64,000 nucleotides of DNA from Paramicrobacterium agarici (GTDB lineage Bacteria; Actinomycetota; Actinomycetes; Actinomycetales; Microbacteriaceae), in the NCBI RefSeq assembly GCF_002563955.1, contig NZ_PDJE01000001.1:2666001-2730000 (forward strand). Direction: 5' to 3'. The notes below the pieces were generated by a model. The model worked only from the letters and a program-made list of their open reading frames with translations. It was not told the origin of the DNA and made no database searches. A program made the translations under genes and the position numbers. This document shows, piece after piece, positions 44,683 to 53,051 of this stretch. Each line of letters starts with the position of its first letter. Position 1 is the stretch's first letter.

Positions 44683-46191
44683 GTGTCACACGTGATCGTC
44701 GTGGGTTCCGGCATCGCCGGACTTACGGTAGCGCTGCGCGCCTCAGCCGAGCACGACGTGACGATCGTCACGAAAGATGCTCTCGGAGACGGCAACACTG
44801 CACGGGCGCAAGGCGGCATCGCCGGGGTGCTGTGCGATGATGACTCGGTCGACGCACACATCAACGACACCGTGCGCGCCGGGGCAGGGCTCTGCGACGA
44901 AGACGCCGTTCGCGTGCTGTGCAGCGAGGGCCCCGAGCGCATTCGCGGCCTCGCGGCAGCTGGCGTGGACTTCGATACCGACGGCACCGGTTTTGCCCAA
45001 GGCCTTGAAGCCGCACACTCGTATCCGCGCGTCGTGCACGCGGGAGGCGATGCCACAGGGCGAGCAATCGCACGCACGCTGGCACAGCGCGTGCGGGAAC
45101 GCCGGATACCCGTGCTCGAGAACTCCCTTCTGATCGACCTCGTCGTGCGGGACGACGCTGTCGTCGGAACGGATGTTCTCACGCCCACCGGCCCCATCCG
45201 GATGCTGGCCGAGACCACGGTCATCGCCACGGGTGGCAGTGGACAGCTGTATGAACGAACGACGAACCCGCGCGGCGCTACCGGGGACGGTGTGGCCGCC
45301 GCCCTGCGCGCGGGCGCCCGCATCGCCGACGCCGAGTTCTATCAGTTTCACCCGACCGCCCTCGCCGGCAGCGGATTTCTCATCTCGGAGGCCGTACGAG
45401 GCGCCGGAGCTGTTCTGCGCGACAACACCGGCCGACGATTCATGCTCGACGTCGACCCACGCGCCGAACTCGCCCCGCGAAGCACCGTCGCGCTTGCTCT
45501 CGCACGCACGATGGCCGCGCAGGACGGCGCGCCGGTGCTGCTCGACGCCACGGGCGTGCCGCGGCTTGCCGAGCGCTTTCCCACGCTCACCGCGGCTGTT
45601 GCGCAGGCCGGTCTTGACTGGACGAGTGAGCCCGTGCCGGTCACTCCTGCGGCGCACTACTGGATGGGCGGCATCGAGGTGGACCTCGAGGGACGGACGA
45701 CCGTTGAGGGGCTCGTCGCCGTTGGAGAAGCCGCGCACACGGGTGTGCATGGCGCAAACAGGCTCGCATCGAATTCTCTGCTCGAAGGAGCGGTCTTCGC
45801 CGAGCGCGCGGCCGCCGCTGTGCCGCGCGGCAACAAGCGACAGCATCCGCCCCTGTCACCTGCCGTGACCGAGATCGTGGCGCCTGCGCTCGACCGCAGC
45901 GATCTTCAGCGCCTCGCCTGGAGCGCGCTCGGCCTCGAGCGATGCGAATCGTCACTCAACGACGCCATCTGTCGGCTCAATGCGTGGGATGCAGAGGCAT
46001 CGCTCACGCCGATCACGCGTGAGGGCCTTGAGAACCGCAACCTTCTGCTCGTCGCGCGCGTCATTGCGCGACAGGCACTCGCCCGGCGTGAGACCCGCGG
46101 GGCGCACGCGCGCCTCGACTACCCCGACGCCGACCCCGAACAGGCGCGATCCGTCACCACCGCACTAGCCCAGGAGGCTCTCGCATGCTGA
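44683..46191 (+). CDS. nadB: L-aspartate oxidase
   Basis: 502 residues of the succinate dehydrogenase/fumarate reductase flavoprotein family. FAD motif VVGSGIAGLTVAL at the N-terminus, ARAQGGIAGVL, and FHPTALAGSGFLISEAVRG. It oxidises L-aspartate to iminoaspartate, the NadA substrate. It starts at a GTG 2 bp after nadA and overlaps nadC by 7 bp. Confidence 0.93.
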   Translation: MSHVIVVGSGIAGLTVALRASAEHDVTIVTKDALGDGNTARAQGGIAGVLCDDDSVDAHINDTVRAGAGLCDEDAVRVLCSEGPERIRGLAAAGVDFDTDGTGFAQGLEAAHSYPRVVHAGGDATGRAIARTLAQRVRERRIPVLENSLLIDLVVRDDAVVGTDVLTPTGPIRMLAETTVIATGGSGQLYERTTNPRGATGDGVAAALRAGARIADAEFYQFHPTALAGSGFLISEAVRGAGAVLRDNTGRRFMLDVDPRAELAPRSTVALALARTMAAQDGAPVLLDATGVPRLAERFPTLTAAVAQAGLDWTSEPVPVTPAAHYWMGGIEVDLEGRTTVEGLVAVGEAAHTGVHGANRLASNSLLEGAVFAERAAAAVPRGNKRQHPPLSPAVTEIVAPALDRSDLQRLAWSALGLERCESSLNDAICRLNAWDAEASLTPITREGLENRNLLLVARVIARQALARRETRGAHARLDYPDADPEQARSVTTALAQEALAC

Positions 46192-47042
46192 CCGCATCCC
46201 ACATCGACCGTGTCGTTCAGCTGGCGCTCGACGAAGACGCGCCGTGGGGAGACATCACGAGCGAGACGTTCATTCCCGCAGGGACCCGAGCCACAGCCGT
46301 GCTGAGCGCTCGTGAGCCCGGCGTGCTCGCGGGCGGCGACGTCTTCGCTGCGGCTTTTCGCCTGACGAGCACTGACACCGGGGTCACGGTGCACGTCGCC
46401 GACGGCGAGCGCTTCAGCGCGGGCGAGACGCTCGCAACCGTGTCCGGCCCCGCGAGAGGACTGCTTCGAGCCGAACGCATCGGACTCAACTTCTGTCAGC
46501 GCCTCTCGGGCATTGCGACCGTGACAAGCGCTTTCGTTGCCGCCGTCGACGGAACGGGCGTGCGCATCGCCGACACGCGCAAGACGACGCCTGGGCTTCG
46601 CGCACTAGAACGTCACGCCGTGCGATGCGGCGGCGGCCACAATCACCGGTTCAGCCTCTCGGACGCCGTGATGGCGAAAGACAATCATCTCGCCGTGCTG
46701 ACCTCGCGCGGCATGTCGGTGACCGAGGCGATCCGAGCCGCTCGCGCACGCCTCGGCCACACGACGACAATCGAGGTCGAGGTCGATCGCATTGACCAGA
46801 TCGAACCCGTGATCGCTGGAGGGGCCGACATCATCATGCTCGACAACTTCACACTCGACGAGCTGCGCGAGGGCGTCACTATCGTCGACGGGCGCGCCGT
46901 CGTCGAGGCGAGCGGGAATGTAACGCTCGAGACGGTGCGCGGCATTGCGGAGACAGGCGTCAACGTGATCTCGTCAGGGGCGCTGACCCACAGCATCCGG
47001 TCGCTCGATCTGGGCCTCGACATGATCGTCGACGGAGTGTGA
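46185..47042 (+). CDS. nadC: Nicotinate-nucleotide pyrophosphorylase (carboxylating)
   Basis: 285 residues. Motifs: DEDAPWGDITSE, the phosphoribosyl-binding RIADTRKTTPGLRALERHAV, GGGHNHRFSLSDAVMAKDNH, and a C-terminal ASGNVTLETVRGIAETGVN. Converts quinolinate and PRPP to nicotinate mononucleotide. It completes the de novo NAD route with nadA and nadB and ends 1 bp before the desulfurase gene. Confidence 0.94.
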   Translation: MLTASHIDRVVQLALDEDAPWGDITSETFIPAGTRATAVLSAREPGVLAGGDVFAAAFRLTSTDTGVTVHVADGERFSAGETLATVSGPARGLLRAERIGLNFCQRLSGIATVTSAFVAAVDGTGVRIADTRKTTPGLRALERHAVRCGGGHNHRFSLSDAVMAKDNHLAVLTSRGMSVTEAIRAARARLGHTTTIEVEVDRIDQIEPVIAGGADIIMLDNFTLDELREGVTIVDGRAVVEASGNVTLETVRGIAETGVNVISSGALTHSIRSLDLGLDMIVDGV

Positions 47043-50456: not shown

Positions 50457-50495
50457 ATGCACGTCGAAACGACTTTTCAGTGGTGGACCGCCTGA
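50457..50495 (+). CDS. trpL: Tryptophan operon leader peptide
   Basis: Twelve residues, MHVETTFQWWTA, with tandem Trp codons at 50481-50486. The stop at 50493-50495 lies in the first attenuator stem. Ribosome stalling at the Trp pair when charged tRNA-Trp is scarce would free the next segment to form the antiterminator. The peptide resembles actinobacterial Trp leaders. Confidence 0.88.
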   Translation: MHVETTFQWWTA

Positions 50496-50553
50496 CAGGC
50501 GGTTCGCTCATCGTATTCGACGCACGACGACCGCCCCTCGAGGCGGTCGTTTT
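50487..50553 (+). terminator. Trp attenuator with mutually exclusive stems
   Basis: Segment 1 (50487-50493, ACCGCCT) pairs with segment 2 (50497-50503, AGGCGGT). Segment 3-4 is a 9-bp terminator stem (50527-50535 with 50542-50550) with a 6-nt loop and TTTT. Segment 2 can also pair with ACCGCC at 50530-50535 in segment 3, forming the antiterminator. This is the complete 1:2, 2:3, 3:4 logic of transcription attenuation. Confidence 0.88.
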
Positions 50554-50599
50554 GCGTGTATCGACGGCAGCCGGCAGGGGCCAGACCAGAAAGTGACCC

Positions 50600-52447
50600 A
50601 TGCCTTCGCCCTCGCTCCTCCCCCGGCTCCTCGCCGATGACGTTCCGTTCGCGATCATCCGCCGCGAGAACGACCCGACCATCGATGTCCTCGCGGGATC
50701 GGTCATCGATGTGCCAACCCTCGCCGACATTCCGCTGACGGGCGCTGAGGTGCTCGCGCTCGTGCCGTTCCGGCAGGTCGCGGAGCGCGGCTACGACGCA
50801 CACGACGACGGCACGCCGCTTCGGTGTCTCGTCGTCGCACAGCGCGAGACGCTGCACATCGACGACGTGCTCGCTGCTCTTCCACAGCATCCTGCTGACG
50901 TGTCTGACGTGACCACAACGATCGACGACGAGACCTACGCGCAGATCGTGCAGACCGTGATCGACGATGAGATCGGCCGCGGCGAGGGCGCGAACTTCGT
51001 GATTCGCCGTGACGTCACCGCTCGTACGGCCGAGACCGGCGTCGTCGCCCTCCTCAGCTGGCTGCGTGAGCTCCTCGTCAGTTAGCGCGGAGCGTACTGG
51101 ACGTTCGCCGTTCGCACGCCGGGCATCTCGCTCGTCGGAGCCACGCCTGAACGGCATGTCAGCGTCAGCGACGGCGTCGTCGGCATGAATCCCATCAGCG
51201 GAACCTATCGTCACCCCGCAGGCGGCGCGAGTACCGACGGCATGCTGCGATTTCTTGAGGATGTGAAAGAGAGCGAAGAACTCGTCATGGTCGTTGACGA
51301 GGAGCTCAAGATGATGAGCACCGTATGTCCCGACGGCGGACGAATGCGTGGACCGTTCCTCAAACGCATGTCGCGGCTGACGCACACCGAGTACCTTCTC
51401 GAGGGGCACACGCCGCTCGACGTGCGAGACGTGCTGCGGGAGACGATGTTCGCTCCCACCGTCACCGGCTCCCCTATGCAGAACGCATGCCGCGTCATCA
51501 CACGGCACGAAACGACGGGGCGTCGCTATTACTCGGGAGTGCTCGCGCGCTTCGCGCCGACAGCGTCGGGCTACGACCTCGACGCCCCGATTCTGATTCG
51601 CACGGCTCACCTCGACGACGATGGGACGGTCACGGTCTCCTCGGGGGCAACGCTCGTGCGGCACTCGACGCCTGAGAATGAGGTCGCCGAGACACGGGTG
51701 AAAGCGGCCGGAGTGCTCAGCGCCCTCGGCGTGCTCCCGCGCGGCACCGCCGGGGCACCCCTGCCGAATGACGCTCGATTCGACGATCTCCTCAACGCGC
51801 GCAACAGCGACATCGCACCGTTCTGGAGGCAGCCGCAGCAGCAGAGACCTTCGCGGGGGCAGACCGCGCTCGTGATCGATGCCGGCGACGACTTCACTCG
51901 GATGCTGGTGCATCAGCTCACGCACCTGGGCTTCGACGCGCGAGTCGTCGGCTGGGAGCGCGCAAATCCGACGGCGAACGACGATCTCGTGGTCTTCGGA
52001 CCGGGCCCCGGCGATCCACGTTCGACAGAGCAGCGAATCGGCAGGCTGCGTCGGCTCATGAGCGACCGTATATCGAGTGGGCTGCCAATGCTGGCCGTGT
52101 GCCTGAGCCATCAGATCCTGTCGCTCATGGTCGGTCTCGATGTCGTGCCGCTGGCCGCCCCGCGCCAGGGCGTGCAGCACACCGTTGATCTGTTCGGCAA
52201 AGATGCGCGCATTGGCTTCTACAACACGTTCGCCGCCGTGTCGGAACAGGGCGATCTCACACCTCGCATGTCCCTGGAGATCTCCCGCGACACCGAGACC
52301 GGAATCGTGCACGCGCTTCGCGGTCCCCGCATCGCTTCGGTGCAGGGTCACCTCGAGTCCGTGCTGTCTCCCGACGGTCTCGACGTGCTCGATCGACTTG
52401 TTTCCGAGCTGCAGGTTCCCCAAGTCGCCACAACCCAGACACAATAG
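50600..52447 (+). pseudogene. Fused TrpE-TrpG-type anthranilate/ADIC synthase with internal TAG
   Basis: One continuous frame of 616 codons, broken only by TAG at codon 162 (51083-51085). The N-terminal part has VPFAIIRREN and LADIPLTGAEVLALVPFRQ. Directly after the TAG the frame resumes with RGAYWTF, VGATPERHVSV, MNPISGTYRHP, a conserved MVVDEELKMM, and NACRVITRHETTGRRYYSG (chorismate site). A C-terminal class I glutamine amidotransferase follows: FGPGPGDPR, nucleophile Cys in LAVCLSHQIL, and QGHLES. This is the PhzE/actinobacterial TrpEG fusion type. An intact Trp attenuator precedes it, favouring anthranilate synthesis. The ATG at 51185 could restart translation but has no ribosome site and would lack essential N-terminal sequence. 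Confidence 0.85.
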
Positions 52448-52451
52448 AGGT

Positions 52452-53051
52452 GTGTCGTTCTTCTCTCGTCTCCGGCGCCGCAAGCGCACCCGCGATGTGG
52501 GCCGCTATGTGCCGCCCGCGTCGACGACGCTCGCGCCCATCGAGCGTGTCGTCGAGGAAGGCGTTCTGATTGCGATGTCTTCGGTGCGCATGGCGGTCAA
52601 GAACACGCTCATCGTCAACGCCATTCGCAACGACGAGCGATTCGACATCGACAAGCTCGCCGGCTCCGCCAGGCAGCGTGTGCTTTCACTCGCCGCAGAG
52701 AACGATCAGACGGCGTCGCGGCTCGAGCGCGCACGCGGGTTCCGCAAGCCAGGGCCAGACGACGACGAAGCACATCGGAGGCGGCCGCAAGTGCATCGGA
52801 TGGTCGCCGAGCGACTTCGCGAGCGGGCAGACGACGACTCTGAGATGACCGAGATCATTGAGCGCGCTCGCACGGACGCGTGGGAAGACATCGGCCGCGA
52901 AGTGCGCAAACGCGTCGGGCCCCCTGGTTTCGTTCCCGACCAGGGCGACGTCTACGACCGCATGCGCAAGAGCCGCATGAAGCGCCTCGTCGACGTCGAC
53001 CTCGCGGCTCTCGCGCGCGATCAGAAGCGCGCCGCGAGGGAGAAGAGCTGA
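52452..53051 (+). CDS. Charged helical protein, function unknown
   Basis: 199 residues from a GTG 4 bp after the TrpEG stop. A basic start (VSFFSRLRRRKRTRD) precedes an alternating-charge, mostly helical protein with VEEGVLIAMSSVRMAVKNTL, a middle acidic-basic linker (KPGPDDDEAHRRRPQ) and a C-terminal MRKSRMKRLVDVDLAALARD. No membrane helix and no enzyme motif were seen. I do not recognise the family. Position suggests co-transcription with the upstream gene. Confidence 0.66.
   Translation: MSFFSRLRRRKRTRDVGRYVPPASTTLAPIERVVEEGVLIAMSSVRMAVKNTLIVNAIRNDERFDIDKLAGSARQRVLSLAAENDQTASRLERARGFRKPGPDDDEAHRRRPQVHRMVAERLRERADDDSEMTEIIERARTDAWEDIGREVRKRVGPPGFVPDQGDVYDRMRKSRMKRLVDVDLAALARDQKRAAREKS

Follow-up and report, generated by a model that had tools for sequence, protein, structure and literature searches.

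Does a single stop codon inside an otherwise perfect reading frame mark a gene that has just died, an error in the assembly, or a codon that the cell still reads? The question is raised by the locus at 50600-52447 of the window, by which we mean the whole 64,000-nucleotide stretch of Paramicrobacterium agarici DNA that was analysed. Translation of the forward strand gives a 616-codon frame of the PhzE/TrpEG type with one inner stop, a TAG at codon 162, which we confirmed as a real feature of the analysed sequence; the terminal stop of the frame is also TAG, as it is in 4/4 congeners. From the lack of other damage and the intact attenuator, the initial annotation had derived three options, namely a very recent change, a sequencing error, or a decoded TAG, and this framing held. 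In our analysis the locus is probably a dispensable TrpEG paralog under Trp attenuation in which a nonsense mutation arose very recently, a reading in which the case for the death of the gene depends wholly on one base in one assembly. Coordinates are collected in Table 1.

Table 1. Features of the interrupted frame, its leader region and its downstream neighbour (positions in the window).
Feature	Position	Strand	Remarks
Trp leader peptide MHVETTFQWWTA	50457..50495	+	ATG 50457, stop TGA 50493-50495
First attenuator stem (strands 1:2)	50480..50511	+	RNA fold; overlaps both the Trp codons and the stop of the leader
Terminator stem (strands 3:4), then TTTT	50526..50551	+	RNA fold
TrpEG/PhzE-type frame, open part before the inner stop	50600..51085	+	161 aa, stops at the premature TAG
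Premature TAG	51083..51085	+	Column is Glu in 22/22 aligned relatives
Downstream part of the TrpEG/PhzE-type frame	51086..52447	+	Chorismate_bind and GATase, 453 codons plus terminal TAG
Downstream neighbour, no Pfam match	52452..53051	+	Begins 5 bases past the terminal stop

The two sides of the stop had been assigned to the same family and frame, and the searches bore this out. In Pfam, the downstream part matched Chorismate_bind (PF00425; 115.7 bits, cut-off 27) followed by class-I GATase (PF00117; 89.1 bits, cut-off 22.8), both in one frame that is continuous save for the TAG. Its codons scored 415.5 bits against the PhzE structure 3r74, with the next best match at 80 bits and the separate TrpE 1i7q at 53.4 bits, which places it nearer to PhzE than to separate TrpE. 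The N-terminal 161 residues matched the N-terminus of the same 3r74 chain (86.3 bits, E 1.9e-23), and the two halves are therefore parts of one gene. The locus is predicted to encode an enzyme of the PhzE or actinobacterial TrpEG kind, in which chorismate-binding and glutamine-amidotransferase domains are fused and whose product would be either anthranilate or ADIC; the part of PMC5958127 available to us notes that the reason PhzE halts at ADIC is not evident from sequence. When the downstream part only was scored, the NCBIfam equivalogs for anthranilate synthase were not reached (TIGR01815, 122 versus 739.15 bits; NF010081, 136 versus 645 bits). A search of the genome for PHZA_PHZB (PF03284) gave no match and is uninformative, since none was found in 14 controls either.

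The residue replaced by the stop is highly conserved. We aligned 22 relatives (L006-L014 and L036-L048), leaving out L035, which is the same record as L008, and the distant L049 and L050. The Glu expected before RGAYWTF was present throughout, encoded by GAG in 17 relatives and GAA in 5, and the outcome that would have recast the stop as a family trait, its presence in all relatives, was absent, as 0/22 have an inner stop. The protein-database searches for homologs of the downstream part and for nadC scored 8000 candidates each and listed 120; among the 120 homologs listed 119 have Glu at this column, while P0114 does not include the region. Origin of the TAG from GAG by one base, as first proposed, is possible, given that one of four congeners has GAG, and is unproven, given that the other three have GAA, two steps from TAG. 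Intact orthologs of 616, 615, 616 and 616 aa occur in P. fandaimingii, P. humi, sp. CJ85 and Microbacterium sp. MPKO10, respectively, and are 65.7-79.8% identical to the read frame. Across 59 genomes, strong matches of this type (identity at least 53%, at least 276 bits) were found in just 10, comprising 5/5 in the genus and 5/54 outside it; the gene is therefore best read as a dispensable accessory paralog.

The claim that the frame has no other damage was borne out by the measures of decay applied. Apart from the TAG, the frame is open and 0/136 family-invariant positions, defined from 21 relatives (the partial L014 left out), are changed in the window gene; among intact controls, each scored on an invariant set of its own, the count ranged from 0 to 6. 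With zero changes over 293-309 nonsynonymous target sites, the interval since constraint was lifted is no longer than about 0.01 neutral substitutions per site (95%), and if the gene is dead, its death must therefore fall within that interval. For comparison, the three nearest congeners differ from the window gene by a dS of 1.11-1.21 in the downstream part. The dN/dS values of the window gene, 0.102-0.108 downstream and 0.123-0.227 upstream of the stop, compare with 0.061-0.105 and 0.106-0.229 between congeners. From the same set of comparisons, the figures for 53909 (third congener) and 59011 (second congener) are disregarded, since the stretch matched extended past the start into non-coding upstream sequence. 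Relative-rate tests gave chi-square values of at most 2.67, and residues unseen in other sequences numbered 29/585 in the window gene, against a range for seven relatives of 10 to 57 per 586. With no further damage, no invariant position changed and dN/dS not raised, the locus does not look like an old pseudogene.

The regulatory region is likewise undamaged, with leader, first stem and terminator stem all in place as the initial annotation had described. The region 50472-50556 folds at -45.7 kcal/mol, compared with -27.75 +/- 3.29 kcal/mol for 200 shuffles (z = -5.46). Strand 2 (GGCGGT) is complementary by eye to strand 3 (ACCGCC), and this 2:3 pairing is the expected antiterminator. The gene thus has upstream a tandem-Trp leader, a terminator and, by eye, an alternative pairing, which together define a classical Trp attenuator; an Rfam scan returned two matches, both below the gathering score, and assigned no family. 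A leader with adjacent Trp codons precedes the gene at 18/23 loci, the window counted in, and was not found at the other five (L011, L012, L013, L039 and L043).

We searched the genome, a single contig of 3,233,920 bases with completeness 100, for genes that could stand in for the interrupted one. It has four chorismate-binding genes, the TrpEG/PhzE-type gene counted in. The check for separate genes suggested at the outset found a trpE above its curated cut-off (716.4 versus 693 bits) and a trpG-type gene just below (303.5 versus 308 bits), together with trpD (342.7 bits, cut-off 199.05). Because these are present, the loss of tryptophan raised by the initial annotation is not expected. Another chorismate-binding gene is pabB-like (297.5 bits, below the cut-off of 328.4); the remaining one has no NCBIfam match at E 1e-80 and is presumably menF, lying between frames that we take to be menD- and menG-like. 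The separate trpE (L001), downstream of what we take to be hisF- and hisI-like frames, has no WW leader upstream. The attenuated copy is therefore the accessory fused gene, and the copy that responds to tryptophan is probably the broken one.

If the gene is indeed a fresh nonsense allele, low levels of charged tRNA-Trp would still allow its message to be transcribed, and ribosomes would halt at codon 162 to yield a useless 161-aa fragment. The un-attenuated trpE together with trpG would keep up the anthranilate supply, and loss of the fused gene would therefore be tolerated. The fragment itself is present in the protein database (P0121), as an entry representing two member sequences.

The foremost alternative, which we judge unlikely, is a sequencing or assembly error that hides a sense codon in the chromosome and an intact gene. 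An error would account for a sole defect of one codon and for the absence of changed invariant positions, as in the intact control L042 (0/137), and the downstream dN/dS to congeners resembles that between congeners. Against it, the assembly is of one contig and complete, and 0/12 neighbouring genes compared are split in the window, so that the assembly is not generally faulty, though a single-base error would still be compatible with this. An error in one assembly would also not account for the fact that the matches listed include no intact copy from a second strain.

That strain came to light through a nadC protein (P0225) in the protein database, encoded on a 3,353,670-base contig and identical at 281/285 residues to the nadC of the window (46185-47042). 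Judged by this protein, its source is a second strain, of the same species or nearly so; PMC10757982, in the portion available to us, reports two strains of P. agarici. Among the 120 homologs listed, none is more than 83% identical to the downstream part, and the 420-aa open reading frame of the window itself is likewise absent. The second strain thus seems to be without an intact copy too, and it may share the stop, be without the gene, or have a copy annotated as a pseudogene. A hand estimate from nadC puts the dS between the strains at about 0.04-0.055. If the stop were common to both strains, the loss would be older than their split, and 6 to 8 changes (a hand estimate) would be expected at the 136 invariant positions; the zero observed would then count against the preferred reading and favour a tolerated TAG or a recent exchange between the strains.

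A tolerated TAG would mean that a near-cognate tRNA reads through it, or that both halves are made, with the frame staying under selection. We regard this as very unlikely. The same small likelihood attaches to its fuller form, in which an amber codon old enough to be shared by the strains is read by ordinary tRNAs to give low-level enzyme that keeps the frame under selection, with readthrough perhaps higher under the tryptophan starvation sensed by the attenuator. That neither part of the frame has decayed, and that the second strain possibly, though this is unproven, has the same stop, would both agree with tolerance. The decoding machinery speaks against it. The suppressor tRNA invoked initially was not found: none of 45 tRNA genes (Rfam tRNA matches, every anticodon read by ARAGORN) has a CUA anticodon, and a pattern search, weak in that it assumed fixed spacing, found no such tRNA either. 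We accordingly reject recoding of the suppressor or pyrrolysine type; with TAG at codon 162 and no tRNA for it among the 45, the gene as read does not specify a full-length polypeptide. Both RF1 (477.4 bits, cut-off 423.25) and RF2 (491.4 bits, cut-off 370) are present, which removes missing RF1 as a cause of TAG decoding, and TAG terminates 3/20 genes in the stretch checked. No relative has a stop at the column, and we know of no conserved readthrough signal. Translation of the second half by itself would have to begin at the earliest in-frame start downstream of the TAG, ATG 51185, whose 420-aa product has neither the GATPERHV stretch nor the N-terminal part of the protein; with that stretch missing, an active synthase from this restart is thought unlikely.

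Least credible of all is tryptophan auxotrophy caused by the loss, for although the Trp attenuator on this gene and the trpE without a WW leader suggest that it may have been the Trp-responsive source of anthranilate, separate trpE and trpD exceed their cut-offs, a trpG-type gene is present, and 49/59 genomes searched have no strong match of this type.

The surroundings of the locus, which we take to consist of nad, nifS-like and thi-like genes, gave three further observations. The gene immediately downstream adjoins the TrpEG/PhzE-type gene in four congeners as well, and polarity from the premature TAG could lower its expression. A 670-aa open reading frame on the minus strand (50477-52489) spans the whole gene; in congeners the corresponding antisense frame is interrupted by stops, and we reject it as a real gene and take it as a codon-bias by-product. 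Separately, the match of the nadB ortholog of one congener (L109, genome G003) to the window nadB spans 417/502 residues, and the frame may be broken there.

If the very recent nonsense allele is real, it would offer a clean example of how gene loss begins: a single stop has appeared while regulation is still in place, decay has not yet set in, and a working backup exists elsewhere. A lone in-frame TAG should not be taken as evidence of recoding when the frame around it is perfect, and the locus would gain in importance only if several strains had the TAG with the downstream part still conserved.

Precedents for attenuated anthranilate synthase genes reportedly include one described for S. venezuelae by Lin in 1998, as cited in PMC4833913. 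The available portions of two further sources describe a leader with three Trp residues (TrpL1) upstream of the monocistronic trpE of S. lividans (PMC8079986) and classical attenuators predicted 5' of trp operons in Streptomyces and Corynebacterium (PMC1262725). Like these, the gene studied here has a short tandem-Trp leader and a terminator at its 5' side, a likeness of description; unlike them, it is a broken gene that the attenuator controls. PhzE, the ADIC synthase of Burkholderia (PDB 3r74), is the best solved relative of both parts and has the same fused domain order, and it differs from the window gene, which is broken by the TAG and has a Trp attenuator upstream. The intact Paramicrobacterium orthologs share the gene order of the window in four congeners and, unlike the window gene, encode Glu at this column without any inner stop.
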